Virus record (IMG/VR): IMGVR_UViG_3300030060_005321
Coordinates: 1-37,811 of that record
From: a virus
Direction: 5' to 3' (one strand)
Length of the DNA stretch: 37,811 nucleotides
Below, piece by piece: positions 14,692 to 34,583 of the stretch. Every line of letters begins with the position of its first letter. Position 1 is the stretch's first letter. A model generated the notes under the pieces. It was not told the DNA's origin and searched no databases. It saw nothing but the letters and a program-made list of their open reading frames with translations. The translations under genes and the position numbers were made by a program.

Positions 14692-17600
14692 ATGTTTGAA
14701 TACGAGTTTGAAGACACAATGTTCACTCAAGAACAAATTGACAATAGAGCTAAAGAAAAAGGCCTGTCAACAGAGCAATATTTAACTAATAATCCTTCTA
14801 TAAACAAGATAGAAGTGGAAAAGACACTCGACGTTGCGACGCAGGATGCCCCTGTAGCGTCGGAAGTAGATACGGCATCCAGCTTGGAAGATACTTCTTC
14901 GGAGTTTGTGTTTGAGCGTCATGATTTTTTAAAAGATAAAGATAAAGAAGGAAATGTAGTAGGATATAGTCTTTTTGAAAAAAAATCTAGTGATATTGTT
15001 AAAGCTTTAGAACAGTATTATCCAAACTTTAATTTTAGAACATCTAACTATGGGTTTAGAGCTATAGCGCCAGACGGAACTGAATCTGTAGAAATATCTG
15101 ACAATTTAGGCCCACAAGTATTAACAGGGCTTACTCCTAGTATTGATCCAGAAACTGGCGTAGTTACTAAGGTAGATACTAATTCACCTGAGTACATGTT
15201 TAAGCGTCAGCAAGATCAATTTGAAAAATTAACTTCTTTTATAGATAATAAATCTACAGAAAAAGATTTACAAGCTTATCAAGAAAAGGCTAAATCTGAT
15301 GAGTTTCAATACAAACTATTTAGTGCTCGTTTAGAAGAAGAAATAGATAAGCAAGGTATAGAAGACGAATATCTTATTGATAATATTAACTTTGATTTTA
15401 ATAAACCAGAAAGCAAAGATAATCCTAGAAAAATAACTAATAGAGACATATTTAAGCCTCAAACTAATATTGTAAATACAATTAGTAATACAGGTGGCGT
15501 GTTATCTGGCACAGGCGTAACGTCAAGATCAGTAACAACAATTCCTTACGAAAAAGAACTAGCTGAAGCTCGCAAAGCTCTTGGTGATAAAGCTACTGAA
15601 GAGCAAGCTCAAGATTATGTAGTACAAAAGTTAATACAAAAAGATATAATAGCTCAAAGAGAGCAAGTAGCTGACGCTATAATAGAGAGTAGTGAAGAGT
15701 ATCAATTTTTACTAGACAGAGGTGCTAAAGAGTTTGCGAATAAATATTCGTCTAAAATAAAACTTTATGACACTTTAAAAAATGAACTAACAGATGGTGA
15801 AGCTTTAAAAAGATTACAAGATATTCAAAGCAAAATAAATGATACTGAATATAATTTTGAAGCTAGAGAAGAAGAACCTATAGTGTACTTGCAAGACGGA
15901 AGATACGTGCCTGTTAGAATACTAAACGAATTTGATGAACTACAAAAGCAGTATAATATTAGTATATCACATTTTAATTCGTTACAACAGGATATATCTG
16001 ATAACATATCTGGTTTAACTGATGTTGGTTTAAAAATGGATTTGCTTAGAAGAAACTACGATGGAGTACATAAGTTTTTTACAACTACTGGTCTTAGAAC
16101 AGTTGAGTTGTTAGACAACATGCAGTACGGTATACGGCAAATGAATAATCCTCATGCTTCTGCTTTAAGTTATGTAGATTTTAATAAACGAAAACAAAGG
16201 TATCAAGAAATAAGAGATAAATTTGAAAAAGACGTAGACTTTGATGACGCTTTTTCTTCTTTAGAAAATTTTGGTACTTTTTTAGCTCAAGAAACAGCTA
16301 ATCAGCTTCCTATATTTGCCGCGTTAGCTCTTCCAGGTGGAGCTGGTTTTGGAATAATAGGCATGTCTGGCTTTGGTGAGCAATACTACAATATGACTAC
16401 TAGGCAATTAGATCCTAAAATTAGAGCAGAGTACAGTGATATGGAAAAGTTTTTTGCTTCTCTAGGCTACGGTGGTGCTGAGGTAGTCTTTGGATCTTTA
16501 CCTACATACTTTTTATTAAAAGGTATAACTAGAAGTACAGCTACAAAAGCTATAATAAGAAACAAGTTTAGAGAGTGGAACACTAAAGAAATAGCTGTAG
16601 GTGTAGCTGGTGCTAGCGCAGAAAGTATTGGTGAAGGATTAACTATAGTTACTCAAAATGCAATAAACGGAATTGACTTAATGGAAAACGTAGATCATGC
16701 TATGTTTTCTGGTCTTTTATTTGGTACTACTTTTGCTAGTGTACCTATTATAAAAGGTCAAGTTCTTAGATATTATTCAACGGCTGATCAATTTAAAAAT
16801 ATTGATGTTAAAAATGCTGAAATTGAAAAATTAGAACAAATTAATTTAACTTTACAATCAAAAATAGATAATCAAGGTCGTAGAGGCATACTTCCAGATG
16901 CTGTAGTAGGCGTTGAAGTTGATTTACAAAATAGAAATACACAGAGAATAGAAGAGCTTCAAAAAGAAATTATAGATGAAGTAGCAGAGATTGAATTAAA
17001 AACAACTAAAATATATGGGCAAGTATCAGAGCAATTTGTAGGTGCTATAAATGACTTGTCTAAAATTAGAGTTGAATATCAAAAAATATATGATAGCGAT
17101 ATAAATAATAAAGAAGTTGTATTAAAACAGTTAGAAGCTGAATATATTGGTTTAGAACAAGGTATAAGAGAGTTTAAAAAATCTAAAGATTTTGATAATC
17201 AGTGGGCTTTATATAGTGCTAAAAGAAAAAATAAATCTGACGTAAAAAGAATTAAAAATTTAGCAGAGCAACAGTTAGAGCAAGAAGGAGATAAAATAGA
17301 TATTAGTAAGATAGAAAATAGAGCTAGGCTTATATATAACACTGAACAAATACAAGCAGATATAAAACTAAATAGATCTAGAGGGACTAATTTAAGTAGA
17401 ACTTTAGTAGATTTTAATACTGTAGAACAAGCTACAGAATATCTAAATAAAGTAGCTGATGCTAAAATACAGCAAGATCCAAACAACGCTGATGCTATAA
17501 ATGCTAAAAGAGATGCAGACATACAGACTTTAAAGAACGGCGGACACGGTCTTAATTTAAACACTGTGCAAGGTAGAAAATCTTTAGTAGTTATAGAAAA

Positions 17601-20600
17601 TATGGCTAAAGATGATAGGCTTGAAATAAGAACTCACGAATTAAAACATCAAGTTTTTGTTGATATACTAGGAACTGATCCTGACGCTTATCAAGACATG
17701 GCTGATCAAGTTATGAAATGGCTTGAAGTTAATAATAAATCTGCTTTTAAACGAGTTAACACTTTTGCAGAAAGAAACGCTGAAGGCAATTTGTTATCTT
17801 ACGAAGTACTAGCGGTGTTTTTTGAAGAAGTTGCAGCAGGTAAAATAAACTTAAACAATGATGGTAGATTTGCTGGTTTATTAGGGTATTTTGTTAGAGA
17901 CGGCGCTAAAAAGAAAGGCATGAACATAGACTTAGCAGGCGAACAAGATGCTGTTAAATTTTTAATAGGTTTAGCTACAAAAATAAAACAAGGTGCGCTT
18001 ACTCTTAAAGATACTCAAACTGCTAAAAAAAGATTACAAGAAGATTTTGCTGATCGTAATGAATTTTTATCTACCGTATTACTAGAAAAGTCTACTTTAA
18101 AATCTAGTAGAAACCAACAAGGCGTATTTAAAGATAGCAACGATGCTTTGATAGAAGGCTTACAAATGTTAGGTTTAGAAAACGCTGACTTGTTTGCTTT
18201 AGATGCTGAAGGTTTAACCAACATAAGAGAAACTCAGCCAGAAGTTTTTAATAAAATGGTTAAAGACTGGAACAATTTAGGTGACTCAAGACTTTGGCTT
18301 GGAAGTTCGCTAGGCCCTGTATGGAGAACTTTCTCTGAAGTAAACTACTTAAGCAAAAGAGACAAAGCTACAAACTACGGCTTATTAAAAGATGATATAC
18401 TTGACGTGTTAACTATAGGTGTACAGCCTGGCGACAACGGAATACCTTACATTGTAAGATCTTGGTTAGACGAAGACATGTCGTCTGGCAACATAAGATC
18501 TTTAAACTCACATATTTTTGGCTTAATAAATACTAGACTTATGGCTAAAGACGGTATTATAGACCGTAAGTTTCCAAGGTTAGGTATGAAAACTGTAGCG
18601 CTAGACGCAGAAACAGAAACTGGTCGAGTTTTAGAATTAACAAGCGATCAAGATGTAGATGCTATATTAGCTAAACAAAAACAAAAGCAAACTCTATTAG
18701 AGAAAGCTACAGAATATAACTCAAGAAAAGCTATAGGCATTGATGATAACTTTGCTGCAGAAATAGAAAATGTAGTAGAAGAAATATTAATTGAATCTGA
18801 TATAACTGATATATCTAAGTTTGAGTTTACGCAGAAGTTTAAAAGCAAAGTTGAAGACGCTCTTTATAAAAAGATAAAGTCTATGATGGGTAAAGGCGTT
18901 AAAGGTAGAGAGCAGTTTTTACGAAAACATAAGAACGATATAATGCGTATTGTTAATACAGCTGCTTTTGTTCAGTTTGAAAAACGTGAAACAAACAAAA
19001 TATTCGCAGATTTAGTTTCTACTAACCAAGGCCCAGAAGTAATAAAGCAGGCTATTAACGACGGGTTAATACAACCGTTTGAAGTAGAAAACTTAGAGGC
19101 TGGAAACAATATATACAAAAAGAAAACAGATATTAATGAAGATCAGTTTGTAGAATTCTTTTCAGTAAGAGGTAGAGAAAACGCTTTAGCAAGAGCTTTA
19201 GCTTTTAATATATCTAGAGACGCTGTATTTCCTGTAGTCAATAAAAATGATAAAGTTAAAAAAGCTATTGGTGGTGAAGCTGGCATTAAAGCTTTAAAAG
19301 CTAGGATAAATACAAATCAAGATGTAACTTTATTTAGTAAAAGAATAAGTAACTTAGATGTTTTTGGTCAAACATATTTAGCTAATGGATTAGATCAACT
19401 AGTAAGCCGAATACAAGCAGGTGTAAACTTTGACGAAGCTTTTGATTTTGTCTATCCAAAAGGCAATAACGCTTATAATTTTGAAGGCCAAAGAAAAGGT
19501 GTTAAGCAAGATATTAGCAAAATACTAGGAGATTATGATGATGTAGTTGTTATAAGAAAGTCTCAAGGCATATCAGACGAAACTACACTGTTAGATTATT
19601 TTAACGAACAAACACAACCTACAGCTGAGTTTGCCTCAACAAGCGCTAAAGCTATATTTGACTTAGATGAAGGCATGGGTGACTTTAGCAATAAAGATCA
19701 AATAATTAGTGGTAGAAAAGCTCTTCTTGAACTTGTTAAAGTTTTAGGTAGAAGTAAAGCTAATAGATTTTTAAGAGGTTTAACTACTTCTTCTCAAATA
19801 GGCTCTACAGATCTTATAGCTAGAGGTGTTGATATTTTAGAGGTCGGTTTAACACAAAGAAGACTAGATGCTTTACTAGCTAAACCAAAAAAGAAAAGAA
19901 CAAGTAGAGACAAAAGAAAAATAGAAGACTATAAAACTAGAATAGCTGAAAAAGTTACAAAGCTTGATAAAAGATATGGTTTACTTGATGGCGTCAGTGA
20001 TTTTGAAAACAACTTTTTATCTAATGAAGACGTAGCTCAAGATAATATAAGTTTTTTAGAGTCTAACTCACAGACTGTTGGGCCGTACATAAGAAATAAA
20101 GCTAATTTAGATTATAACGACATATCTTCAAAAGCTAAAGCTGAGCAAGATTTTTTATTAGAGCTTTCTGATATTTTAATAAATTTAGTAAAAGATCCGC
20201 AGTCGCGAGTAAGTAGAAACGATGCTGCAATGATTGTGATGTCTATGGCTAACGCTGGCATGAATACAGCAATAGCTAAAGCAGCACCAGTAAGATATGT
20301 TCCAGCTGCAGATATAAAAGGTCCGTTTAGATACGAGCATACTATACCTAGAAAAATAATAGCAAGCTATATGGCTGCTTATATAAATGGTAAAGTAAGT
20401 AGAAAAGATTTTGAAAAATTACTTGACAATTATCATGTAGCAATAATACCACAGTCTACAGATAATGGATTAACTAAGGCTGGTCTTCAATCAAGTATGC
20501 AAGCAGACTGGAATTTAGACAATATCAACGATATAAATAGATATGCTAACAATAAGACTTTAGGTTTTTGGGACACAGCTCTTTTTGATTTGAAAACAAA

Positions 20601-23433
20601 AGCTATTGAGCCAAAAACATTTGAGTGGGCTAGAGTTAATTCTATAATAACTGACACTGAGCAAGAGTTCAACTATAACATATTAAATAGTCAAATTGCG
20701 TTAAACGCTAGATCAACAACGTTAAAATCAGCTAGAGGTATGTCTACGTTTGATTTTGATGAAACATTAATTGTTGATGGCGAAAACTTTATAGTAGCTA
20801 GAAAAGGTGACGAAGAAATAAAGATAAGTTCGGGTAGATGGCCTATTGACGGGCCAACACTAGCAGCTGAAGGCTACAGCTTTGACTTTACAGACTTTGT
20901 AAACGTTAGAGGCGGAGTTAATGGACCATTACTAACTAAGTTTAGAGAGCGACTAGAAAAGTTTGGTCCTGAGAATATGTTTGTACTAACAGCTAGACCT
21001 CAACAGTCTGCTGAAGCTATACACGGTTGGTTAAAATCTAAAGGCTTAACAATACCTTTAGCAAATATAACAGGCCTTGGTAATAGCACAGGTGAAGCTA
21101 AAGCAGAGTGGATGCTTAAAAAGTTTGAAGAAGGCTACAACGATATGTATTTTGTTGATGACGCTCTGCCTAACGTAGACGCTGTTAAGAACGTTCTAGA
21201 TCAACTAGATATTAAATCTGATGTTCAGCAAGCTATAACGCTAAAAAGTGAAAGAAACAGCATAGAATTTAACAAAATGCTTGAGAGAACTAAAGGTGTT
21301 GGAGCTCAAAAGACGTTTTCTAGAGTTGAAGCCATGAAGCGTGGTAAAAATGTAGGTGGCTTTAAGCTTTTTGTTCCGCCTTCAGCTGAAGACTTTACAG
21401 GTTTATTAAGATATTTTGTTGGCACAGGCACTCAAGGTGATGCTGATATAAAGTTTTTTGAAGAAGCTTTAGTTAAGCCTTTCGCTAGAGCTGATCGTGA
21501 GATGGCAGAGATGAAACAAAAAATTAGAGACGAGTATAAAGCTATTAACAAACAGTTTCCTGATGTTAAAAAGAAACTTGGTAAACTTACAGCGCTAAAA
21601 GGTTTTACACTAGATAACGCTATACGTGTATATTTATTTGATAAAGCTGGCTATGAAATACCAGGATTATCAAAATCAGCTAAAGCTAAGCTTGTAAATA
21701 TAGTTAAATCAGATCCTCAAGCGCTTGCTTACGCAGAGTCTGTTAGTCGTATAACAAAACAAAAAGAAGGTTATATAGCTCCTGACGAGTACTGGAACGT
21801 TGGAAACATAGCTCAAGATCTTCAAAACGTAGTAAATAAAGTTAGTAGAAAGCAGTATTTAGCTGAGTGGAAAAATAATGTTGAAGTAATATTTTCAGAA
21901 ACAAACTTAAATAAAGTAGAAGCTGTTTACGGTAGTGATTTTAGATCTGCTTTAGAAGATATACTTTATCGTATGGAAAGCGGGCAAAACCGTAGGCGTG
22001 GTGCTACTAAGTTTGAGAATCAATGGAACAACTGGGTTAACAACTCTGTTGGTGCTATTATGTTCTTTAACGCTAGATCAGCTGTATTACAGACAATGTC
22101 TACTGTAAACTTTGTAAACTTTGAAGACAATAATATATTTGCTGCTAGTAGAGCTTTTGCTAATCAAAAACAATATTGGTCTGATTTTAGCTTTTTGTTT
22201 AATTCTAGCTTTTTAAGAAACAGAAGAGCTGGTCTTGCTACTAATATAAACGAAGCTGAACTCGCTAGTGCTGTAGCTGGCGCTAAAAATAAAGCTAAAG
22301 CAGCCTTAGGTTATTTGTTAAAAATAGGTTTTACACCAACACAAATAGCAGATAGCTTTGCTATTGCTTCTGGTGGTGCTACGTTTTATAGAAATAGAAT
22401 AAAAAGATATGTTGACTCTGGCTTATCGCAAACTGAAGCAGAAGCTCAAGCTATGTTAGACTTTCAAGAAATAGCAGAAGAAACACAGCAGTCTGCAAGA
22501 CCTGATCGTATATCACAGCAACAAGCTTCAAACCTAGGCCGTATAATACTTGCTTTTGCTAACACGCCAATGCAGTATAACAGACTTATTAAAAAGGCAG
22601 CTGGTGACTTGATAAACAGACGTGGTGATTGGAGAGCTAATATGTCTCGTATAGTTTATTATGGTGCCGTGCAAAACTTTATATTTGCTTCGTTACAAAA
22701 CGCATTATTTGCTATGGCATTTGAAGAAGAAGGTGATGAAGAAAAAGAAGAAGTAAAACAAATGAGAGTACTTAACAGTATGCTAGATTCTTTGCTTAGA
22801 GGCTCTGGTATAGGTGGGGCTGCCCTTGCTACCGTTAAAAATGCCATACTTGAATATATGGAGCAGAGTGAAAAAGGTGGAAGAGCTGACTACAACGAAG
22901 TTGTTCTTGAAGCTTTACAAGTATCACCGCCACTAGGTTCTAAAGCTAGAAAATTATCTAGTGCTGGTAAAACTATAAAGTACAACAAAGAAGTTATCAA
23001 GCGCATGGATTTGTTAGACTACGATAATCCTGTTTGGACAGCTGTAGGTAACACTGTTGAAGCTACTACAAATATACCTATGGCTAGAGCTATACGTAAA
23101 ATAGATAACTTACGTGAAGCTATGAATCAAGATAATACTAATATGCAAAGGTTGTTTTTAACTTTAGGTTGGAGCAGTTGGGATTTAAATGTAGGTGAGC
23201 GTGTAATTAGAAATCCAGGTAGACAAAACGAATATGTTGTATTTTTAGATAAAAAACGTAAAGCAATACAAGATGCTAAAGATGAAATAAAGCAAGAGAA
23301 AAAAGAAGAGAGAGCGAAGCAAAGAGAAGAAAAGAAAAAGAATCAACAGAGGTGTACAGCTATTAAGTCTGATGGTGAAAGATGTAAGATGATGATTGAC
23401 AAGCCAAAGAAAAGGTGTCATTATCACGATTAA
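14692..23433 (+). CDS. Giant multidomain virion protein with metallopeptidase and HAD domains
   Basis: This 2913-aa protein is the largest in the window. The N-terminus (FTQEQIDNRAKEKGLSTEQY) is a motif I have seen at the start of large marine phage virion proteins. Hydrophobic segments around residues 535-565, 600-625 and 665-690 suggest membrane insertion. A gluzincin-like site HELKH lies at 982-986, with a candidate third ligand Glu1038 in SYEVLAVFFEE. A HAD phosphatase domain spans ~2015-2175: DFDET at 2021-2025, LTARP at 2099-2103, a conserved Lys in GEAKAEWMLKK, and VDDALPNVD from 2155. Two C-terminal hydrophobic segments flank the conserved FANTPMQYNRLIKKA. The last 28 residues form a CTAIKSDGERCK...RCHYH knuckle. 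It is probably an ejected cargo protein (large polyvalent-type); substrates are unknown. No RNA-polymerase motif was found. Confidence 0.8.
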   Translation: MFEYEFEDTMFTQEQIDNRAKEKGLSTEQYLTNNPSINKIEVEKTLDVATQDAPVASEVDTASSLEDTSSEFVFERHDFLKDKDKEGNVVGYSLFEKKSSDIVKALEQYYPNFNFRTSNYGFRAIAPDGTESVEISDNLGPQVLTGLTPSIDPETGVVTKVDTNSPEYMFKRQQDQFEKLTSFIDNKSTEKDLQAYQEKAKSDEFQYKLFSARLEEEIDKQGIEDEYLIDNINFDFNKPESKDNPRKITNRDIFKPQTNIVNTISNTGGVLSGTGVTSRSVTTIPYEKELAEARKALGDKATEEQAQDYVVQKLIQKDIIAQREQVADAIIESSEEYQFLLDRGAKEFANKYSSKIKLYDTLKNELTDGEALKRLQDIQSKINDTEYNFEAREEEPIVYLQDGRYVPVRILNEFDELQKQYNISISHFNSLQQDISDNISGLTDVGLKMDLLRRNYDGVHKFFTTTGLRTVELLDNMQYGIRQMNNPHASALSYVDFNKRKQRYQEIRDKFEKDVDFDDAFSSLENFGTFLAQETANQLPIFAALALPGGAGFGIIGMSGFGEQYYNMTTRQLDPKIRAEYSDMEKFFASLGYGGAEVVFGSLPTYFLLKGITRSTATKAIIRNKFREWNTKEIAVGVAGASAESIGEGLTIVTQNAINGIDLMENVDHAMFSGLLFGTTFASVPIIKGQVLRYYSTADQFKNIDVKNAEIEKLEQINLTLQSKIDNQGRRGILPDAVVGVEVDLQNRNTQRIEELQKEIIDEVAEIELKTTKIYGQVSEQFVGAINDLSKIRVEYQKIYDSDINNKEVVLKQLEAEYIGLEQGIREFKKSKDFDNQWALYSAKRKNKSDVKRIKNLAEQQLEQEGDKIDISKIENRARLIYNTEQIQADIKLNRSRGTNLSRTLVDFNTVEQATEYLNKVADAKIQQDPNNADAINAKRDADIQTLKNGGHGLNLNTVQGRKSLVVIENMAKDDRLEIRTHELKHQVFVDILGTDPDAYQDMADQVMKWLEVNNKSAFKRVNTFAERNAEGNLLSYEVLAVFFEEVAAGKINLNNDGRFAGLLGYFVRDGAKKKGMNIDLAGEQDAVKFLIGLATKIKQGALTLKDTQTAKKRLQEDFADRNEFLSTVLLEKSTLKSSRNQQGVFKDSNDALIEGLQMLGLENADLFALDAEGLTNIRETQPEVFNKMVKDWNNLGDSRLWLGSSLGPVWRTFSEVNYLSKRDKATNYGLLKDDILDVLTIGVQPGDNGIPYIVRSWLDEDMSSGNIRSLNSHIFGLINTRLMAKDGIIDRKFPRLGMKTVALDAETETGRVLELTSDQDVDAILAKQKQKQTLLEKATEYNSRKAIGIDDNFAAEIENVVEEILIESDITDISKFEFTQKFKSKVEDALYKKIKSMMGKGVKGREQFLRKHKNDIMRIVNTAAFVQFEKRETNKIFADLVSTNQGPEVIKQAINDGLIQPFEVENLEAGNNIYKKKTDINEDQFVEFFSVRGRENALARALAFNISRDAVFPVVNKNDKVKKAIGGEAGIKALKARINTNQDVTLFSKRISNLDVFGQTYLANGLDQLVSRIQAGVNFDEAFDFVYPKGNNAYNFEGQRKGVKQDISKILGDYDDVVVIRKSQGISDETTLLDYFNEQTQPTAEFASTSAKAIFDLDEGMGDFSNKDQIISGRKALLELVKVLGRSKANRFLRGLTTSSQIGSTDLIARGVDILEVGLTQRRLDALLAKPKKKRTSRDKRKIEDYKTRIAEKVTKLDKRYGLLDGVSDFENNFLSNEDVAQDNISFLESNSQTVGPYIRNKANLDYNDISSKAKAEQDFLLELSDILINLVKDPQSRVSRNDAAMIVMSMANAGMNTAIAKAAPVRYVPAADIKGPFRYEHTIPRKIIASYMAAYINGKVSRKDFEKLLDNYHVAIIPQSTDNGLTKAGLQSSMQADWNLDNINDINRYANNKTLGFWDTALFDLKTKAIEPKTFEWARVNSIITDTEQEFNYNILNSQIALNARSTTLKSARGMSTFDFDETLIVDGENFIVARKGDEEIKISSGRWPIDGPTLAAEGYSFDFTDFVNVRGGVNGPLLTKFRERLEKFGPENMFVLTARPQQSAEAIHGWLKSKGLTIPLANITGLGNSTGEAKAEWMLKKFEEGYNDMYFVDDALPNVDAVKNVLDQLDIKSDVQQAITLKSERNSIEFNKMLERTKGVGAQKTFSRVEAMKRGKNVGGFKLFVPPSAEDFTGLLRYFVGTGTQGDADIKFFEEALVKPFARADREMAEMKQKIRDEYKAINKQFPDVKKKLGKLTALKGFTLDNAIRVYLFDKAGYEIPGLSKSAKAKLVNIVKSDPQALAYAESVSRITKQKEGYIAPDEYWNVGNIAQDLQNVVNKVSRKQYLAEWKNNVEVIFSETNLNKVEAVYGSDFRSALEDILYRMESGQNRRRGATKFENQWNNWVNNSVGAIMFFNARSAVLQTMSTVNFVNFEDNNIFAASRAFANQKQYWSDFSFLFNSSFLRNRRAGLATNINEAELASAVAGAKNKAKAALGYLLKIGFTPTQIADSFAIASGGATFYRNRIKRYVDSGLSQTEAEAQAMLDFQEIAEETQQSARPDRISQQQASNLGRIILAFANTPMQYNRLIKKAAGDLINRRGDWRANMSRIVYYGAVQNFIFASLQNALFAMAFEEEGDEEKEEVKQMRVLNSMLDSLLRGSGIGGAALATVKNAILEYMEQSEKGGRADYNEVVLEALQVSPPLGSKARKLSSAGKTIKYNKEVIKRMDLLDYDNPVWTAVGNTVEATTNIPMARAIRKIDNLREAMNQDNTNMQRLFLTLGWSSWDLNVGERVIRNPGRQNEYVVFLDKKRKAIQDAKDEIKQEKKEERAKQREEKKKNQQRCTAIKSDGERCKMMIDKPKKRCHYHD

Positions 23434-23450: not shown

Positions 23451-24494
23451 ATGAAGTATATAATTTTAATACTAATTTTTATAACATCGTGTGTAACGCC
23501 TAAAGAGTGTTGCTCACAGATTAAAAAAGCTTTTAAGTTTTCTACGTTTTATGTAGCTACAAACGGTGGTACATCATTGTCTGATCAAGATATTTACTCT
23601 GTTGACGGTAGCTCGTTAGACTACGATACTATATTAACGCCTTACGATTATTCGTTAACAATGGGTATACGTAAAATACAAAGGTTTCAATACGAAGGTA
23701 GCACGCCATTTAAAGACGGTACTGAAACATCGTTTTCAGATGCTGCGAACGTTGGTAGATCACCGTTTGAGTATTTGTTTGAAGTAGATTACAAAAGACA
23801 AGAAGGTGTTGAATACTTTGATCAACATCATTTTTTAAGATATGTTAAGCCAAAATGGTTTACAAAAGTAGAATATATTAAAGATGGTTTTGCAGACATA
23901 GAATATTACGAAGCCACGCAAAGATTTAGATTAAACGGTAAAAAGAAGTTATCGTTTAACTTTGGTGGCGTTACTAGACTTGCAGAGCCATACGGCTACG
24001 ATCCGCTAGAAGAGTGGACAATGGCCACAGGCGATATACATTATACGCAACTAGCAATACAAGAAGGTTATAGTGTAGACGTATATAACAATGAGTATAA
24101 AGATCCAAACGGTGATGTAGTAGCTACAAGCTCAGATGTTTGGAATCAAGTAGTAATACCTACAGTTTTAGAAAACTACGTAGATAAAAAGCGTAATGAG
24201 TTAGATAATCAATGGCAAAATAGTATTGTCGTTGGTTTTGACTTTTATCACTACACCAAAAGCTTCTGGCTACACAGCTGGGGTAATTTTATGCCTTACC
24301 ACTACGATGATGGTGGTAGGTTTTCATATCATAACTTTAACAACGGCGAACAGTGGTACGACTACTCAGGTGGTTTGATATTTGGTTACAAACTAAATAG
24401 AAACTTAGGTGTGTTTGCTGAAGGTAAGTATAACAAATATTGGAATCGTGAGTGGTACGACTTTAAAGCAGGTATAAACTACATTATATTTTAA
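23451..24494 (+). CDS. Exported lipoprotein with barrel-like C-terminus
   Basis: I choose ATG 23451 because it begins a textbook lipoprotein signal, MKYIILILIFITSC (lipobox I-T-S-C14); the GTG at 23415 overlaps the previous gene and would bury the signal. The mature protein (347 aa total) is rich in Tyr, Trp, Phe and Asp and is made of short amphipathic strands, for example SIVVGFDFYHYTKSFWLHSW, LIFGYKLNRNLGVFAEGKY and the final FKAGINYIIF. Ending in Phe after alternating residues is the classical outer-membrane beta-barrel signal recognised by BamA. The protein is thus likely delivered to the host outer membrane during infection. Known phage outer-membrane lipoproteins act in superinfection exclusion or receptor blocking; that is inference here, and a virion role cannot be excluded. 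Confidence 0.7.
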   Translation: MKYIILILIFITSCVTPKECCSQIKKAFKFSTFYVATNGGTSLSDQDIYSVDGSSLDYDTILTPYDYSLTMGIRKIQRFQYEGSTPFKDGTETSFSDAANVGRSPFEYLFEVDYKRQEGVEYFDQHHFLRYVKPKWFTKVEYIKDGFADIEYYEATQRFRLNGKKKLSFNFGGVTRLAEPYGYDPLEEWTMATGDIHYTQLAIQEGYSVDVYNNEYKDPNGDVVATSSDVWNQVVIPTVLENYVDKKRNELDNQWQNSIVVGFDFYHYTKSFWLHSWGNFMPYHYDDGGRFSYHNFNNGEQWYDYSGGLIFGYKLNRNLGVFAEGKYNKYWNREWYDFKAGINYIIF

Positions 24495-24496
24495 CA

Positions 24497-24775
24497 ATGG
24501 CAACTGAAATAGGTAAAGACACAAAAGTAAAACTAAGCTTAGAAACAATAATATCACTAGGTATTGTATTAGTAACAATGACTGGTATGTGGTTTACTTT
24601 GCAAGCAGATATTGCTGATGCAAAAGAACTTCCAGAACCACCAGCACCAGAAGTTACACGCATGGAGTTTCAAATGAAAGATGAAATGATACGTAACACT
24701 ATTATGAATACTCAAGAAGATGTTAAAGAGATTAAAGTAACTCTTGAAAAAATTGAAGATAAATTATATAAGTAA
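24497..24775 (+). CDS. Single-TM coiled-coil protein, holin/spanin-like candidate
   Basis: This 92-aa protein has a short charged N-terminus, one transmembrane helix (about residues 16-35, IISLGIVLVTMTGMWFTLQ), a Pro-rich link (LPEPPAPEV) and a C-terminal coiled coil (NTQEDVKEIKVTLEKIEDKL). There is no cleavable signal. Small one-TM proteins with a periplasmic coiled coil occur in phage lysis modules, but no lysis function is shown by sequence. It starts two bases after the lipoprotein gene and its stop shares a base with the next start (TAATG), so translation is probably coupled with the exported thioredoxin-like protein. Confidence 0.65.
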   Translation: MATEIGKDTKVKLSLETIISLGIVLVTMTGMWFTLQADIADAKELPEPPAPEVTRMEFQMKDEMIRNTIMNTQEDVKEIKVTLEKIEDKLYK

Positions 24776-25098
24776 TGAAAATATTTACAACACTACTACT
24801 TAGTTTAATAAGCTTAGTAGCTTTCAGTCAAGTAAAAGTAATACACTTTAACGCAGGCTGGAACGAAGCAAATGACGTTGAGTGGTTTGATAAATTATCA
24901 GACGCTGGTAAAAAAAATTTAAGTATAGACGACACAGAAATACAAAAGAAATATGCTATTGCTATTGTACCTACTATCATTGTGTTTGATGAAGGCGAAG
25001 AAGTAAAACGCTTTCAAGCAGATCTTAGTTTTAAAATGGCTGCTACTAGAGAAGAAATACAAGAATACATCGATGAACTTATAATAAGTAAATTTTAA
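24775..25098 (+). CDS. Secreted thioredoxin-fold protein lacking CxxC
   Basis: This 107-aa protein starts with a signal peptide MKIFTTLLLSLISLVAFSQ, with the FSQ site frequent in Bacteroidota. The mature part follows the thioredoxin order: strand VKVIHFNAGW, helix, strand, then AIVPTIIVFDEGEEV with the cis-Pro at residue 66, then a final helix (TREEIQEYIDELI). At the place of the WCGPC active site it reads W29-N-E-A-N, so both cysteines are missing and it cannot do classical disulfide exchange. It may act as a binding or chaperone-like periplasmic protein. It is only about 88 residues when mature, short for the family. Confidence 0.75.
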   Translation: MKIFTTLLLSLISLVAFSQVKVIHFNAGWNEANDVEWFDKLSDAGKKNLSIDDTEIQKKYAIAIVPTIIVFDEGEEVKRFQADLSFKMAATREEIQEYIDELIISKF

Positions 25099-25102
25099 GA
25101 AC

Positions 25103-25324
25103 ATGGCATTTAAAATGAAAGGATTTTCAGGGTTTAAGCAAACTAAAGACAAAAAAGAAATAAAAGATGACATTCGCTTTTTACCAGGAGACAGTGACTC
25201 GGACTTTTCAAAGCCTTATAATATAGATGTAATAAAGCAACATATACTCAATAGGCCTAAAAGACGTTTTAAAAAGAGTCGAGAAGAAATAAAATTTGAA
25301 AAAAATAGAGACAGACTTATATGA
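25103..25324 (+). CDS. Small basic protein with MAFKMK start
   Basis: This 73-aa basic protein begins MAFKMKGFSGFKQTKDKKE and ends in a Lys/Arg cluster (NRPKRRFKKSREEIKFEKNR). The start resembles the MAYxQKNNPFK signature of the small-protein cassette downstream at 31365-33436. It overlaps the next start by ATGA (25321-25324), so it is translationally coupled to the T9SS-type protein gene. There is no signal peptide or known domain. Such small Lys-rich proteins in phages of this kind are generally unannotated; a DNA- or virion-associated role is only a guess. Confidence 0.65.
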   Translation: MAFKMKGFSGFKQTKDKKEIKDDIRFLPGDSDSDFSKPYNIDVIKQHILNRPKRRFKKSREEIKFEKNRDRLI

Positions 25325-27156
25325 AATATTTAATTACACTATTGCTATGTATTAACATTGCTTTTGCACAATGCCCTCCAGGCACTTGGGGTTTAGATGT
25401 TATTATTAATCCTGATCAATATCCAGAAGAAACATCTTTTGCAGTTCTTAACACTGAAGGCGATACGCTTATGCAAGGTGGACCTTTTCTTGATATTATA
25501 GATTATCAACCGCAATATATATCAACATGCTCACCTGTAGATACTTTTATACTAGTTTTAAATGACGACTATGGCGATGGTGTTGCTGGCAGCTTGTGGG
25601 GCGGTGAAGATGGCTCAGTATACATAGAGCAATGCGGTGATACAATATGGCAACTAGATTCTGCTGACTTTGGCTTTCAGCTTATAGATACTTTAATAAC
25701 CACTAATTGTCCGCCACCACCACCTATATTTGGTTGTATGGATAGTAGCTATGTTGAGTTTGACTTTACAGCTACAGTAGATACTAGTATGTGCTACACA
25801 CCTATTGTTTATGGTTGTACAGACTCATTAGCTTACAATTATGTTGATAGCGCTAATACAGATATAAATATATCTAGCTGTACGCATTACTTAGAATTAA
25901 CTGACTTAGCTGGTAACGGTTGGGCAGGTTCTATCTTAATTGTATCACAAGCTACAAACCTATCACCGCCTTATGGTTACGCAGTAATAGATACTTTTAC
26001 TTTAACTAATGGCTTTGATACCACATATACATTAAACTTAGAGGCAGGTTATTTAGTTAAAGCAATATTTGAAATAAACTTTCAATCAGACTTTACAGCA
26101 GTGCAGTGTGGTTACACTTTATATTCTGATGACTATATAGCTATAGAACAAGAAGGCGGTTTTGCAGATCCAATACCACCGTTTATGCACATTACAGGTG
26201 AAACATACTGTGGCAATGAGTGTGTTGATAGAACTTATGGTTGTATAGATACATTAGCAATTAACTACAACGATAGTGTTAATACAGATGATGGCAGCTG
26301 CTATTATAATCCTGGTTGTACTAATCCTTTATACTTAGAATATGACGCAGCTTATGACTATGATGATAACTCGTGCGCTACACTTATTACGTATGGATGT
26401 ATGGACACTACAGCATTTAACTATGATCCACTGGCTAACGTTGAAATACCTGGCTCTTGTATTGCTGTCGTAGAAGGTTGCATGGACGACGATGCTTTTA
26501 ATTATAATATAAATGCTAATGTAGATAATGGTAGCTGTATACCTGTGATATTTGGTTGTATCGATGCTACTGCTTTTAATTATTGCGATACATGTAATAC
26601 AGACAATGGTAGCTGTATTGAGGTTATTAACGGTTGTACTGACAGTACAGCACTAAACTATTACGCCTTTGCAAATACTGATAATGGCTCTTGTATTTAT
26701 CCTGTGTATGGCTGCAACGATCCGTCTGCTATTAACTACGATCCGTTTGTTAATGTGCCTGACTCGTCGTGTGAGTATTCTGCTGGTTGCTTTGTTGGTG
26801 ATGTCTATACTTTACCTAATGCTTGTTTCGAGTGGGTGATACAAGTTGATCCGTACTGTTGTAATGATAACTGGGATAATACTTGCTATGAGCTTTATAA
26901 CTACTGCGAAGAAGGCTGGACAGGCCCTGTTGATATAAGTATGTACAAAAGAACTGTATATATACCATATCCAAATCCAACAAAAGATTATATAAACTTT
27001 AACGAAACTGTAGATGTTTTAGTCATAGATAACTACGGTAGAAAACATAAACTATACTTAGATACTAAAAGAATAAAGTTAGATAAAGGTATTAACTATA
27101 TTAAAGTATCAAACGACAACGGAGTTAACTTTACAACTATAATAATTGTACAATGA
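25321..27156 (+). CDS. Secreted surface protein with T9SS sorting domain and GC-D repeats
   Basis: This is a 611-aa protein. It has a signal peptide MKYLITLLLCINIAFA cleaved before Gln-Cys. The N-terminal beta domain contains NDDYGDGVAGSLWGG, a Bacteroidota secreted-protein motif; a related AGNGWAGSILIV lies near residue 200. Nine repeats of the form GC[MIT]D...NY...N[TV]DxGSC run from about 138 to 490, broken after the second by a beta insertion. A Cys-rich YCCNDNWDNTCYELYNYC segment follows. The last 66 residues are a type-A T9SS sorting domain: YPNPTKDYINF from 550, VLVIDNYGRK, then INYIKVSNDNG. Start and stop both overlap neighbours by ATGA, so it belongs to the phage operon. It was probably acquired from a host and may be shown on the infected-cell surface or carried on the tail. 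Confidence 0.85.
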   Translation: MKYLITLLLCINIAFAQCPPGTWGLDVIINPDQYPEETSFAVLNTEGDTLMQGGPFLDIIDYQPQYISTCSPVDTFILVLNDDYGDGVAGSLWGGEDGSVYIEQCGDTIWQLDSADFGFQLIDTLITTNCPPPPPIFGCMDSSYVEFDFTATVDTSMCYTPIVYGCTDSLAYNYVDSANTDINISSCTHYLELTDLAGNGWAGSILIVSQATNLSPPYGYAVIDTFTLTNGFDTTYTLNLEAGYLVKAIFEINFQSDFTAVQCGYTLYSDDYIAIEQEGGFADPIPPFMHITGETYCGNECVDRTYGCIDTLAINYNDSVNTDDGSCYYNPGCTNPLYLEYDAAYDYDDNSCATLITYGCMDTTAFNYDPLANVEIPGSCIAVVEGCMDDDAFNYNINANVDNGSCIPVIFGCIDATAFNYCDTCNTDNGSCIEVINGCTDSTALNYYAFANTDNGSCIYPVYGCNDPSAINYDPFVNVPDSSCEYSAGCFVGDVYTLPNACFEWVIQVDPYCCNDNWDNTCYELYNYCEEGWTGPVDISMYKRTVYIPYPNPTKDYINFNETVDVLVIDNYGRKHKLYLDTKRIKLDKGINYIKVSNDNGVNFTTIIIVQ

Positions 27157-30100
27157 AGTTTTTAGGCGAGTTTATACAACACTTCGTCTCAAGGTTTCGT
27201 AACGATATATTTCTTGAAGACGTAAGTTCTGGCACTATTGCTAGTGGCGGCTACTTAGGTGTTGACTCAAACAATAAGATAGTTAAAGCTTCGACTGTTG
27301 GTAGTAGTGTAGATTTAACTAGTGAAGTTACAGGTGTTCTACCTGTATCTAACGGCGGCACAGGCGCTAGTACTTTAGCTTCAGACTCTGTGTTAACAGG
27401 CAACGGTACGTCTGCTGTTCAAGCAGAAACTCATTTAACTTGGAGCGCTAGTACTGAAACATTAAGTGTGGAAGGTGAAAGCTCTTCAAAACCTATAGTT
27501 AAAATTCAAAACAACAATACAGACGCAACGCCAGGTGAGTTAAAGTTTAGAAAATTATCTAATGTAGCAGATGGCGATCATCTTGGTAAAATAACTTTTG
27601 TTGGCTTTGCGCCTAGTGGCTCTCCTACCGACGTAGAGTTTGCTACTATACTAGGTGAAGTAAACGAAGCTGACGACGGTGATGAAGAAGGAAAATTAAC
27701 GTTAAGTGTAGCTAGTCATGATGGCGAAAGTCAGCCCGGCGTAACAATAGTTAGTGGTAATGCAGAAGATGAGGTAGATGTTACTATAGCTAACGGAGCC
27801 ACGTCACTGACAACAATAGCTGGTAGTTTAACTGTAACTAGTGATTTAACTGTTAGCGGCACTACAACCACTATAGATACTACAAATTTAAATGTTGAAG
27901 ATAAAAACATAACATTAAACTATAACGCTAGTAGCGATACTTCTTCTTCGGCTGATGGTGCTGGTATTACTATTCAAGATGGTGTAGATGCTTCCAACGA
28001 TGCTACTATATTGTGGACTGCAGCTTCTGATACTTTTACTTTTTCACATCCTGTTAACGCTACTATAGCTACTGCTACGCAAGGAACTATTGACCATGAT
28101 TCGCTTGCTAATTTCGTAGCAGCAGAACATTATCGTTGGGACACAGATATAAGTAGCACAGCTACAATACATACAAATAATATAACTGACTTACACGGAG
28201 CTGGTGTTGATGGTAGCGCTAATCAACTACTAACAGACGATGGCGACGGTACAGTAACATCAGAGGCAAATCTTACTTTTGACTCTGGAACTCTTCAAGT
28301 TATAAATTCTGGTAGTCCTCTGCTTGTTTTAAAAAGAACTTCAACTGGTAGCGATAGTGATAATGTTGGGGTTATTAGATTTACAGGAAATGATGACGCA
28401 GATAATCCTCTTAGATACGCAAGTATTAATGCTAGAATAATAGACGCTAGTGATGGGGCAGAAGAGGGTCAGCTCAACCTTATAGTGGCTAGCCATGACG
28501 GTGAAGAAGCAACTGGGCTAAGCATAACAAGTGGTGATGCTGAAGATGAAGTTGATGTTACGATAGGCAATGGTGCTACATCTTTAACAACAGTAGCTGG
28601 AACATTAACAATGGGTAGCACTGCTTTTGTTAACAACAGTGGTGTTATACAGGTTGCAACTCAAGGTACTATTGACCACGATTCATTAGCAAACTTTGTT
28701 GCAGCTGAACATTACAGGTGGGATAATGATATAAGCTCTACAGCAACTATAAATGCTGCCAATATACCTACATTAAATCAAAGTACAACAGGTAACGCTG
28801 CAACTGCTACAGCTTTAACTTCTGGCGATAAAACAATAGAAGGTAATTTAAGAATAGGTGGTAGTGGTGATACATCTAACAACTGGATTAGTATCGATGC
28901 TCAAGATGGTGATGACGCTAGTGGTGGTGGTATTACGTTTTATGAAACAGGTACATATAGTGTAAGCGCACCACAGTATGGTGCTAAAATAGTATTTAAC
29001 GAAGACGATGATGAGTTTGCTATAGGTACTATGCACAACAATACTTTCATGCGTCAAATGCACATGGACAGAGGTAGCTCAACTGTTGTGATGAAAAACG
29101 TAAACGTTGCTACTACTTCAACTGATGGTCCTTTTACAATGTTTACTAACGAAGACACGTCTATAACAGATGGGCAAAGTTTATGTAGAATAATAGTTAG
29201 AAATTCTGACAGAGGAACAAGCACTAATAATAGTCAAATACAATGGCTTGCTACGGAAGATCATGATAGTAATAGTTGCGGTACTAAAATAAACTTTACA
29301 GTAACACCTAACGGTAATAGTCAGTCTGAAACTACGGCTATGACTATAGACCAAGATAGTAGCGTAACTATAAATGGTGATTTAACTGTTACTTCTGGAA
29401 CTTCTGGTGACGCAACACTTATAATATCTGCTGACACAGATAATAACGATGAAAGTGATAATGCTAGGCTTTGGCTTAAGCAAGACGGTGATATTACTGA
29501 AGGGGCCATACAAATGACTAGCAATGTTCTTAATATTATAAATAATGTTAGTGGTTCTGGTGGTATAAGTTTTCAAACAGGTACTACAAATAATACGGGC
29601 ACAACAGATCCTTCTACAGGCGCTACAGAGAGAATGTCTATAGCTTCTGGCGGTACTGTTACTGTAGCAGGAGCGTTACAACCAAACACTATAGAGCTTG
29701 GTCACGCTTCAGATACTACAATATCTAGAATTGCAGCTGGGTATGCACAGGTAGAAGGTGAAACAATAGTTACTACAATAACCCCTAGTATTTCAAGCAC
29801 ACAAGTTGCTCAGCCTATAGCTACTTTGATGGCTAGAAGAACTTTAACTACAGCAGAAATGAACGACCTGCATAATACACCTATAGGAATAATACCAGCT
29901 CCAGGTGCAAATATAGTAGCTTTACCTACTGGTGGTATGGTTAGAGTTGATAGAGCTAGCACAAACAGTAGTAGTGGCACTATGGATTTTCATTATGAAG
30001 GATTAGAACCTGTTTCTTTCGGTACAGATTCTTTAGTACACATAAGACGTTTTCATTTTAACAAAACAACTGATGGTGTTTATAATTTATCAGGCGCTAT

Positions 30101-30242
30101 TCCCGCGTCAACCATGTGTGCTGATAGCTTAACTGAAGACGTTAATAAAGCAATAGAAGTTAGTCTTAGCGCTGCTGCAACGACAGATTGTTTTACAAGT
30201 GTAGATATATATTTAACATATCAATTAATTAAAATAGCATAA
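27153..30242 (+). CDS. Modular tail fibre / receptor-binding candidate
   Basis: This 1029-aa protein has the usual opening of marine phage fibres: a short helix (FLGEFIQHFVSRFRNDIF), then GYLGVDSNNKIVKAS and VLPVSNGGTGASTLASDSVL. The shaft is made of Ser/Thr/Asp/Gly-rich beta repeats, including the widespread module LTVSGTTTTIDTTNLNVEDK (residues ~228-305). Residues ~95-340 and ~350-535 are duplicated blocks. The C-terminal ~150 residues (TLTTAEMNDLHNTPIGIIPA onward) form a distinct compact domain with two Cys, possibly the attachment or receptor-binding head. It begins on an ATGA overlap with the T9SS-type gene. No hydrolase or chaperone domain is visible. Role as fibre is well supported by composition and repeats; receptor is unknown. 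Confidence 0.8.
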   Translation: MKFLGEFIQHFVSRFRNDIFLEDVSSGTIASGGYLGVDSNNKIVKASTVGSSVDLTSEVTGVLPVSNGGTGASTLASDSVLTGNGTSAVQAETHLTWSASTETLSVEGESSSKPIVKIQNNNTDATPGELKFRKLSNVADGDHLGKITFVGFAPSGSPTDVEFATILGEVNEADDGDEEGKLTLSVASHDGESQPGVTIVSGNAEDEVDVTIANGATSLTTIAGSLTVTSDLTVSGTTTTIDTTNLNVEDKNITLNYNASSDTSSSADGAGITIQDGVDASNDATILWTAASDTFTFSHPVNATIATATQGTIDHDSLANFVAAEHYRWDTDISSTATIHTNNITDLHGAGVDGSANQLLTDDGDGTVTSEANLTFDSGTLQVINSGSPLLVLKRTSTGSDSDNVGVIRFTGNDDADNPLRYASINARIIDASDGAEEGQLNLIVASHDGEEATGLSITSGDAEDEVDVTIGNGATSLTTVAGTLTMGSTAFVNNSGVIQVATQGTIDHDSLANFVAAEHYRWDNDISSTATINAANIPTLNQSTTGNAATATALTSGDKTIEGNLRIGGSGDTSNNWISIDAQDGDDASGGGITFYETGTYSVSAPQYGAKIVFNEDDDEFAIGTMHNNTFMRQMHMDRGSSTVVMKNVNVATTSTDGPFTMFTNEDTSITDGQSLCRIIVRNSDRGTSTNNSQIQWLATEDHDSNSCGTKINFTVTPNGNSQSETTAMTIDQDSSVTINGDLTVTSGTSGDATLIISADTDNNDESDNARLWLKQDGDITEGAIQMTSNVLNIINNVSGSGGISFQTGTTNNTGTTDPSTGATERMSIASGGTVTVAGALQPNTIELGHASDTTISRIAAGYAQVEGETIVTTITPSISSTQVAQPIATLMARRTLTTAEMNDLHNTPIGIIPAPGANIVALPTGGMVRVDRASTNSSSGTMDFHYEGLEPVSFGTDSLVHIRRFHFNKTTDGVYNLSGAIPASTMCADSLTEDVNKAIEVSLSAAATTDCFTSVDIYLTYQLIKIA
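27681..28760 (+). repeat. Protein-level duplicated modules in the fibre gene
   Basis: Two blocks recur in the same order. Block A (VASHDGE...AEDEVDVTI.NGATSLTT) lies at residues ~178-229 and ~437-488; block B (TQGTIDHDSLANFVAAEHYR, then WD.DISSTATI) lies at ~308-342 and ~502-536. The copy spacing is 259 residues for A and 194 for B. The 65-residue difference corresponds to the LTVSGTTTTI module present only between A1 and B1. Third-codon positions have diverged widely, so the duplication is old and kept at the protein level. Confidence 0.8.
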
Positions 30243-32051: not shown

Positions 32052-32837
32052 ATGTTTAAAAACTTTGACATACAAAAGTATTTAAATAAAAAGCCGCCTA
32101 GTAACGGCTCTTTTACTACAACTCAAGAAATAAAAGAGTTGAATAGAATACCTATTAACGAAAGGTTTGTAAAAGAGAAAGATGATGTTAAAGGTAGTTT
32201 TTTAAAACTAGCCAAGAAAAAAGGTTTAGAAGTTAGTGGCGAAGCTATAGATAAAATAATAGATGAGTCTTCTAAAATAATATTAAAAATAAAAAAGCAT
32301 CACAACAGGCCAAGACCAAAAGTATTAGCAAAGAAAAATAATATTAAGTTTGACGACAAAGAGTTAGATTCAATGAAGACGCCATCATACCCATCGGGGC
32401 ACTCAGCGCAAGGTATATTAATAGCAAAGTTATTGGCAGATAAGTTTCCTAAACATGCTAAAGACTTTATGAAAGTTGGTAAAGATATATCTTACAGTAG
32501 AAACGTAGCGCATGCTCACTATAAATCTGATAGTAAGTTTGGTGAACAATTAGGCAAAGATATGTTTGATCATTTAAAGTCTGATAGTCCTTTCGCTAAA
32601 CGTATGGGTGAGTTTAAACACTCAGATGCGCCTGATGCTAAAGGTAAATTTAAAACAATGTCATCTTCATCATTAGCATCGTGGTTGATTAAAACTCGTA
32701 AAAGTAATTTATCTAAAATTATTAGTAGTTTAAATCAACAGTATGTTTTTAATAGAGGTAAAAACCCTAGCTATGCTAAGAAGATGAAAGCTACCATGAA
32801 TATAGTTAGAAAAAGATTAAATAAAAACAAGAAGTAA
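32052..32837 (+). CDS. PAP2-family phosphatase
   Basis: This 261-aa protein has all three PAP2/acid phosphatase motifs with correct spacing: K81-x6-R88-P89, PSGH at 114-117, and S149-R150-x5-H156-x3-D160. His156 would be the nucleophile and His117 the acid. These enzymes remove phosphate from lipids, isoprenoid pyrophosphates, nucleotides or sugars. Unlike membrane lipid phosphatases it has no transmembrane helices and no signal peptide, so it resembles soluble class A acid phosphatases, but is Lys-rich. A C-terminal module (SSLASWLIKTRKSNLSKIIS to the end) is a short helical unit also seen in other phage proteins. It lies in the small-basic cassette after the fibre genes; its substrate is unknown. 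Confidence 0.85.
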   Translation: MFKNFDIQKYLNKKPPSNGSFTTTQEIKELNRIPINERFVKEKDDVKGSFLKLAKKKGLEVSGEAIDKIIDESSKIILKIKKHHNRPRPKVLAKKNNIKFDDKELDSMKTPSYPSGHSAQGILIAKLLADKFPKHAKDFMKVGKDISYSRNVAHAHYKSDSKFGEQLGKDMFDHLKSDSPFAKRMGEFKHSDAPDAKGKFKTMSSSSLASWLIKTRKSNLSKIISSLNQQYVFNRGKNPSYAKKMKATMNIVRKRLNKNKK

Positions 32838-33436: not shown

Positions 33437-34119
33437 AAGCTTATCGTGGCGTTTTAAAAGCTCGTATATCAAAATTGTACGGCGGCGAAGTTACAATTGC
33501 CAAAGCTCGTAAGCTTAAAGCTAGAAAAGATGCCACACCAAGAGACAAACAATTAGCAAATTGGTTTATAAATATGCAAACAAATCGACCATTAAAAAAA
33601 CGTAAAGATCCTGTAGTTGGTACAGGTAAAAAGCCTAAAGGCTCAGGTAGACGTCTATATACAGACGAAGATCCTACTGATACAGTACCTATTAAATTTG
33701 CTACAGTAGCTGATGCTAGAAAAACAATAGCTAAGGTTATGAAGATAAATAAACCTTACGCTAGAAAAGTACAGATACTAACTGTATTAGAACAGCGAGC
33801 TAAAGTGATGGGTAAAATGGAACAAGCAAGACTTGCTAAGTCTGCTAAGGCTACATTAAAAGCTAAAAATAAAAAGTCTAGTCCTGTAAAAGCTACACGT
33901 AAAGTTTGTTTGCCTAAAGCTAAAATAGCTAGCATGAGTCAAGCTGAAAGACAAAAAGTTATCAGAGCTAAAAGAACTGCAGCTTCTCAAGGTAAAAAAG
34001 TTAGAAGCTCTAAAAGTTTTATTAGAGATGGTAGCACTAGAAGTAAAGGTTTAAGAGACTGGGTTAAGCAAGACTGGAGACAAGTTGGTAACCCAAGTAA
34101 AAAATGTGGAGAAAAATGA
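33433..34119 (+). CDS. Basic protein with DUF5872-like C-terminus
   Basis: This is a 228-aa protein with strong positive charge. An N-terminal domain reads MKAYRGVLKARISKLYGG... ARKLKARKDATPRDKQLANW. A middle section reads PIKFATVADARKTIAKVMKI and NKPYARKVQILTVLEQRAKV. A C-terminal segment has KVCLPKAKIASMSQAERQKV, an Arg/Lys/Ser stretch, then GLRDWVKQDWRQVGNPSKKC, which I recognise as similar to DUF5872-type endings of phage proteins. Cys152 and Cys225 (approximate) and the GLRDW motif are typical. It starts and ends on ATGA overlaps, so it is coupled to both neighbours. Function unknown; a virion-associated nucleic-acid-binding role is possible. Confidence 0.7.
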   Translation: MKAYRGVLKARISKLYGGEVTIAKARKLKARKDATPRDKQLANWFINMQTNRPLKKRKDPVVGTGKKPKGSGRRLYTDEDPTDTVPIKFATVADARKTIAKVMKINKPYARKVQILTVLEQRAKVMGKMEQARLAKSAKATLKAKNKKSSPVKATRKVCLPKAKIASMSQAERQKVIRAKRTAASQGKKVRSSKSFIRDGSTRSKGLRDWVKQDWRQVGNPSKKCGEK

Positions 34120-34583
34120 AACTACAAGTATTAAGATTTAGTTCACAAGTGGACTGCACACATGGTTTGTTATTTGAAGTAAGCGAATTAAAAAAACATT
34201 TTTTATGCTATACGCTAGAAGATGAAGCTAGAGTTTTAAAAGTAAAAGGTGAGACTAGAATACCAGCTGGCACTTATAATATTAAGTTAAGAAAAGAAGG
34301 AGGCTTTCATGCGCGTTATGATAAAAAATATCCTGGTATACATCGTGGTATGTTGCATATCGTTGATGTTCCTGGTTTTGAGTATATTCTTATTCATACT
34401 GGAAACACTGATGAGCATACTGCTGGCTGTCTTATCGTCGGTGATAGTCAAGAAAATAATCTTATACTTAGAGACGGGTTTGTTGGTAAATCTGTTAACG
34501 CGTATAAGCGTATTTATCCGAGCATTGCTAAAGCTATTGAACAAGGCGAAGAAGTAACAATTGAATATATAGACTTCGGTTGA
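34116..34583 (+). CDS. DUF5675-like protein, possible lysis enzyme
   Basis: I use ATG 34116 (155 aa) because it overlaps the upstream stop as ATGA; ATG 34104 would overlap by 16 nt. The protein has the DUF5675 pattern: CYTLEDEAR, TRIPAGTYNIKLRKEGGFHA, IHRGMLHIVDVPGFEYILIH and GNTDEHTAGCLIVGDSQ. The His...T-A-G-C arrangement resembles the catalytic His/Cys of YkuD L,D-transpeptidases, so peptidoglycan cleavage or remodelling is plausible but not established for the family. No signal peptide. It is the last gene of the rightward operon, a common place for lysis genes, and no other endolysin was found in the window. Confidence 0.75.
   Translation: MKLQVLRFSSQVDCTHGLLFEVSELKKHFLCYTLEDEARVLKVKGETRIPAGTYNIKLRKEGGFHARYDKKYPGIHRGMLHIVDVPGFEYILIHTGNTDEHTAGCLIVGDSQENNLILRDGFVGKSVNAYKRIYPSIAKAIEQGEEVTIEYIDFG

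Follow-up and report, generated by a model that had tools for sequence, protein, structure and literature searches.

T9SS-type sorting domains (CTDs), the C-terminal signals recognised by the type IX secretion system, have been described in proteins of Cryophage and of crAss-BACON phages. Three such genes are found in Cryophage (Bellas et al. 2020; PMC7468147); they vary between genomes and encode an endoglucanase, a GH39 protein and a PA14 protein. The crAss-BACON cluster 2 phages carry T9SS-CTD proteins that are BACON-associated (PMC6949934). According to the excerpts of these two reports, the CTDs of these Bacteroidota phage genes are of type A and their products are thought to use host secretion, as is the product of the gene described here; its architecture is different, and the excerpts report no obligate β-barrel, transmembrane (TM) or thioredoxin-fold partners. 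Exported proteins of Porphyromonas gingivalis phages (PMC10367356) share with it a Bacteroidota signal peptide of the Q-rule type, and the excerpt of that report leaves T9SS unmentioned and reports no conserved cassette. Host cargos of type A (gingipains, RemA and surface proteins of Flavobacteriales; TIGR04183/PF18962) likewise combine a signal peptide with an immunoglobulin-like CTD, and proteins of Flavobacteriales also have Cys-bead repeats; unlike these, the cargo described here is encoded in a phage late operon, has phage-specific partners and belongs to a family in which CTDs are exchanged between similar bodies.

The locus lies in a stretch of 37,811 nucleotides (the window), part of the 63,755-base virus record IMGVR_UViG_3300030060_005321. 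In the original prediction one gene of this stretch was singled out as encoding a full T9SS substrate, and the use of the host T9SS by a phage was called unusual. With Cryophage and crAss-BACON as precedents (PMC7468147, PMC6949934), such use is less unprecedented than supposed. What had been missed is that the gene belongs to an obligate four-gene envelope cassette. None of the open-access papers searched (subscription papers and preprints lie outside that scope) reports the linkage of the four genes, the thioredoxin-fold partner without redox cysteines or the CTD exchange; the obligate module and the exchange appear to be new, and phage T9SS cargo as such is already known.

The cargo gene, the fourth of the cassette (25321..27156, + strand), encodes 611 residues, as predicted, and is flanked by ATGA overlaps on both sides (the open reading frame (ORF) 25103–25324 with 25321, and 27156 with 27153); gene calls were mechanical. 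At its N-terminus is a typical Bacteroidota signal peptide, MKYLITLLLCINIAFA|Q (residues 1–16, 25321..25368), hydrophobic and with cleavage predicted before Q17 by the Q-rule for Bacteroidota signal peptides (PMC5837995). The Q-rule pattern is present in 63 of 64 cargo relatives, compared with 34% of background ORFs. Following the signal peptide is a β-sandwich domain (25378..25710; model secondary structure, pLDDT 81–90) that contains the predicted DYGDG element within the motif DDYGDGVAGS, in which D82, G85, D86, G87 and G90 are invariant in the family. A second, similar β-sandwich, absent from the earlier description, is modelled at 25876..26205; its motif DLAGNGWAGS is related to the first, and D195, G200 and W201 are invariant.

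Between the two β-sandwiches are Cys-bead repeats 1–2 (25732..25881), and beyond the second is a stalk-like array of repeats 3–9 (26239..26772). The count of nine Cys repeats stands, but the strict form proposed for them, GC[MIT]D...GSC, is matched by only five; the other beads end in SMC, SSC or NSC, or begin with GCTN or GCND. By pattern count, the copy number among cargo relatives ranges from 3 to 27 (median 11), which would suit a stalk of variable length. The CCNDNWDNTC module is found at residues 513–522 (26857..26886), and its cysteines are invariant. A model of the whole cargo (pTM 0.28) gave no meaningful global match to known structures (Foldseek), and the CTD match alone was used from it. 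Beads of the form GCTDPxAxNYN..DDGSC also occur in a large protein encoded a few kilobases upstream of the barrel gene at five loci (L162:2845–7311, L190:3275–7645, L195:3522–7127, L172:3358–7332 and L197:2270–5725). This protein has neither signal peptide nor sorting domain, no PHROG match and a weak match to the SprB repeat, and may be a virion fibre sharing its bead module with the exported cargo.

Forming the end of the cargo is a type A-like sorting domain of 65 residues (residues 547–611, 26959..27153). Taken alone, the window CTD scores 15 bits (hmmscan, E = 0.019) or 18.6 bits against TIGR04183, below the curated cut-off of 23 bits. Within the family, 41 of 51 aligned members match the same model (best E = 6e-13), and the cut-off is exceeded in 38 of 50 related records. 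The family profile matches the T9SS CTDs of PDB 8glj/8glk and gingipain CTDs, and in a structure comparison the predicted window CTD aligns over 74 columns with the CTD of RemA in its complex with the T9SS translocon (8gl6_D, probability 1.00). The anticipated match to sorting-domain models is secure at the level of the family, with the window copy remaining under the curated score.

Of 182 distinct complete cargo ORFs, 181 have a sorting domain at their very end, 166 of them one of type A and 15 one of type B. The type B terminus (DLLGRP..LLFIYDDG..KK), which takes the place of type A in about 15 relatives, also ends proteins of Flavobacteriales. Across the 51 family members one CTD residue is invariant, Gly573, which by its position in the sequence probably corresponds to the conserved glycine of the Lβ3–β4 motif, a motif described as functionally relevant (PMC11285876). 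The divergent CTD of the window type is common to L059, L008, L006, L040 and L064, with dN far below dS (for example, 0.06 versus 1.56 with L059), many dS values being near saturation; judged by a dN/dS ratio well below 1, the CTD is under purifying selection. Taken together with the profile and fold matches, this supports the view that the phage encodes a complete T9SS-type substrate with a type A-like sorting signal, its export by the host being predicted. A search for a donor of the window CTD among 295 class members found no close relative at E ≤ 1e-6 (the search had no positive control), and generic CTD queries matched a few uncultured phage records and no isolates.

Upstream of the cargo gene, on the same strand, are the three other genes of the cassette. 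The first (23451..24494; the ORF opens at 23415, with 23451 the likely start) encodes a predicted outer-membrane β-barrel with a Q-rule signal peptide, a pattern present in 67 of 67 barrel sequences. The model is a closed barrel of 12 amphipathic strands (mean pLDDT 70) and matches NanC, porins and autotransporter barrels (Foldseek, probability about 1.0); by sequence, no match was found among known families and solved structures. The barrel is conserved and its C-terminus reads ..NYIIF. The product of the second gene (24497..24775) is small; its hydropathy peaks near residue 17, in a single TM helix, and according to the family alignment it ends in a coiled coil. Pfam and PDB profile searches with this protein gave nothing informative.

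The third gene (24775..25098) encodes an exported protein with a thioredoxin fold (profile match to thioredoxin 2vim, E = 2e-7), and all 69 such proteins have the Q-rule pattern. The fold and its cis-proline (P66, invariant) are those of thioredoxin; the cassette protein differs in being exported and in having asparagine in place of both active-site cysteines (N30 and N33, invariant, with NxxN in all 31 members). A CxxC motif occurs anywhere in only 6 of 69 relatives. As both active-site cysteines are replaced, the protein is not a usual thiol oxidoreductase. An ORF of 73 residues between the third gene and the cargo gene (25103..25324) is present at this locus only, has no relative and is outside the conserved module. 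From their sequences and models, we infer that the four proteins occupy the inner membrane, the periplasm, the outer membrane and the cell surface.

The four genes were found together in 124 of 125 fully flanked loci, counted over overlapping sets. With both flanks complete, all four were present in 32 of 32 loci found through the thioredoxin-fold protein, 25 of 26 found through the barrel and 22 of 22 found through the cargo, and two further scans starting from divergent barrels gave 45 of 45; these sets overlap and comprise the best 80 matches of each scan, more remote relatives being outside the sample. The genes share one strand wherever checked, and the order TM protein, thioredoxin-fold protein, cargo is nearly constant, with the barrel mostly before them and sometimes after. 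A search of IMG/VR with the cargo found 79 loci, and the barrel and the thioredoxin-fold protein have more than 580 and more than 550 relatives there, respectively; at least 213 distinct barrel sequences accompany a cargo, on contigs ranging from a few kilobases to 245 kb. Pairwise distances co-vary moderately between parts of the cassette, a result that by itself did not show which parts interact. One 245,646-base, jumbo-sized record (IMGVR_UViG_3300030098_004828) has two barrel copies, L391 and L392, about 119 kb apart, each in a fully flanked locus with all four genes.

A chimeric contig had been named beforehand as something that would undo the prediction; in its wider form this explanation includes host DNA joined to a phage contig, and nothing was seen in its favour. 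Many independent contigs keep the gene order around 25321–27156, the same linkage recurs in more than 200 distinct loci, and capsid and cassette genes share a contig in many records, which excludes this explanation for practical purposes. None of the four proteins was detected in 50,697 GenBank phage records (tblastn), among which a ribonucleotide reductase used as a control matched 1185. Among 248 Flavobacteriales genomes a single one has the barrel, and since that copy sits on a T4-like phage contig (L084), the barrel is a phage gene. The L084 contig (NZWA01000061.1), deposited in a Flavobacteriales metagenome-assembled genome (MAG), matches the IMG/VR phage record L315; both have 43,296 bases and the matched barrels are 100% identical. 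As its bin also holds five gp23-type capsid genes, the MAG is contaminated by a T4-like phage.

The cargo of the window and that of L004 are 93% identical in the body and 32% in the CTD, whereas the window and L008 cargos are 70% identical in the body and 88% in the CTD. For pairs with bodies 85–95% identical, the median CTD identity is 43%. Between the window and L004, DNA identity stays near 0.9 as far as position 26836 and drops from there to 0.68 and below. When all parts of the cassette are compared over 180 loci, the CTD is on average the most distant, and it is only weakly correlated with the cargo body. Fast divergence as the sole cause of this pattern was rejected, as some pairs have CTDs more alike than their bodies. 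Read from these alignments, relatives trade sorting domains on a body that is otherwise retained. A Tannerella CTD is reported not to work properly in Porphyromonas (PMC11285876). CTDs are not interchangeable between species, and a new one could thus make the cargo compatible with another host; matching to different hosts is therefore a reasonable reading of what the exchange may serve.

The capsid protein of the window (1205–2704) is 40–47% identical to those of the Flavobacterium elemo phages, Maribacter phage Panino and an uncultured podovirus, with further matches in Cellulophaga phages, which places the virus near marine flavobacterial podoviruses. Among Flavobacteriales, 206 of 248 genomes encode TIGR04183 proteins. 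Capsid proteins of the elemo type were found in 24 of 50 cassette records and not in the rest, some of which are fragments; in the 26 records without one, a search for T4-type capsid protein found it only in the MAG bin of L084. Genes for T4-like gp32, UvsX, DnaB and NrdAB surround the cassette of L084. With the elemo-type capsid in about half of the records and T4-like genes in L084, the cassette is carried on different phage backbones; L083 and L084 derive from metagenome bins that hold phage contigs.

Starting from the domain layout, the linkage and the CTD exchange established above, the following course of events can be proposed. Three of the proteins, the cargo, the barrel and the thioredoxin-fold protein, would leave the cytoplasm through host Sec and be cut by signal peptidase I, so that each begins with glutamine. 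The barrel would then insert into the outer membrane, and the one-TM protein would lie in the inner one. The redox-dead thioredoxin-fold protein would remain periplasmic and might serve the Cys-rich cargo as a chaperone or adaptor. Recognised by the host T9SS through its CTD, the cargo would be placed on the cell surface, where a disulphide-rich stalk of variable length would hold out the two β-sandwich domains. Displayed late in infection, cargo and barrel would most likely shield or alter the phage receptor, which would guard against superinfection and keep progeny from being lost on cell debris. Exchange of the sorting domain would adapt a given cargo body to the T9SS of one host or another.

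We favour, tentatively and just short of calling it probable, the reading that the cargo is the surface part of a late four-gene module remodelling the envelope of the infected Bacteroidota cell, probably for receptor shielding. Shielding is preferred because it makes use of both an outer-membrane and a surface protein, and because phage T5 offers a precedent in Llp (PMC9586334): by analogy, the cassette would supply a phage-made envelope protein blocking the phage receptor, although Llp is a small lipoprotein acting on FhuA and has no homology to the cassette proteins. Superinfection-exclusion proteins are often made early (PMC9586334), and the place of the cargo gene among late genes speaks against shielding; nothing in the cargo sequence ties it to a receptor. 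The cassette sits near fibre-like and lysis genes, and its closeness to endolysins would suit a role in lysis equally well. Such a module for lysis or exit, in which the one-TM coiled-coil protein would act like a spanin or holin of the inner membrane and the other three proteins would disrupt the outer membrane and the T9SS-built coat at release, would account for the coverage of four envelope compartments. A DUF5675/Tlde1-like protein, possibly a peptidoglycan enzyme (34104..34583, + strand; PF18925, E = 8e-27), is encoded outside the obligate four in 86 of 160 cassette loci, an amidase endolysin gene lies directly 3' of the cassette in L084, and holin-like and M15-like genes are nearby in other loci. 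Several loci have separate holin-like genes, however, a stalked T9SS surface protein with two β-sandwich heads would be an unexpected spanin part, and the cassette also adjoins fibre genes, which leaves lysis an unlikely reading, though with the adhesin role it is one of the two main rivals.

A role as a secreted adhesin, with the cargo sticking infected cells, debris or virions to new hosts or particles and the barrel and thioredoxin-fold protein aiding its assembly, would be in keeping with the stalked Cys-bead architecture and its variable repeat number; the same repeats occur in surface proteins of Flavobacteriales and in the signal-less, probably virion, protein of some related phages. 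We regard it as improbable though worth keeping in view, for it leaves the obligatory phage barrel unexplained and no binding domain was recognised in the cargo. Less probable still is an auxiliary module altering nutrient uptake or another surface function of the host, for example as a pore with a capture protein in the manner of a SusCD-type pair: the pairing of a porin-like barrel with a surface protein and the constant linkage agree with it, but there is no similarity to SusC/SusD or any transporter family, and the neighbourhood is one of late genes. The location of the cargo gene among structural genes, and the signal-less repeat protein of related phages, might instead point to a virion component made in the cytoplasm, its signal peptide and CTD being inherited leftovers. 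The retention of both signals in nearly all relatives and the purifying selection on the CTD led us to reject the vestigial reading of these signals, and make a cytoplasmic virion component very improbable.

Beyond receptor shielding, it is quite possible, if somewhat less likely than not, that the four proteins work as one trans-envelope device with a part in each layer, which spreads as a unit between unrelated marine Bacteroidota phages and is retargeted to new hosts by CTD swaps; if so, phages would have an envelope-control system of a previously undescribed kind. Among these marine Bacteroidota phages, a large group that is apparently uncultured, use of the host T9SS is a fixed trait under selection rather than the occasional capture of a gene. 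The joint carriage of four genes apparently addressed to four envelope layers suggests that many uncultivated marine Bacteroidota viruses rebuild the outside of the infected cell. The cassette also names three partner genes for joint testing. By exchanging the CTD on a constant body, nature has in effect run an experiment on the pairing of CTDs with host T9SS, a compatibility so far studied mainly with laboratory chimaeras.

Scans for promoters and terminators, including the Bacteroidota −33/−7 pattern, were uninformative for this AT-rich sequence. Directly downstream, the neighbouring gene taken for a fibre gene (27153–30242) has a fibre-like look and relatives in about 26–31 loci, but no family model names it as such. 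Just upstream of the cassette, a protein of 2913 residues (14692–23433) has a HAD-like DFDET motif, recognised by eye, and relatives adjoining the cassette in about 54 loci. A protein of the PAP2 superfamily (phosphatidic acid phosphatase-like; 32052–32837) is also encoded in the late region and recurs in relatives. A GroEL-type chaperonin is encoded in another cassette record (L003:2736–4310); the elemo phages and MW202828 likewise have annotated GroEL and GroES, and Panino has GroES. On the minus strand of the window is a ribonucleotide reductase gene (34919–36772) with a class II (B12) insertion domain, whose product is 66% identical to that of Microcystis phage Mel-JY01 and about 61–62% identical to those of Vibrio and Oceanospirillum phages; as these phages infect hosts far from Bacteroidota, transfer between distant phages is suggested.
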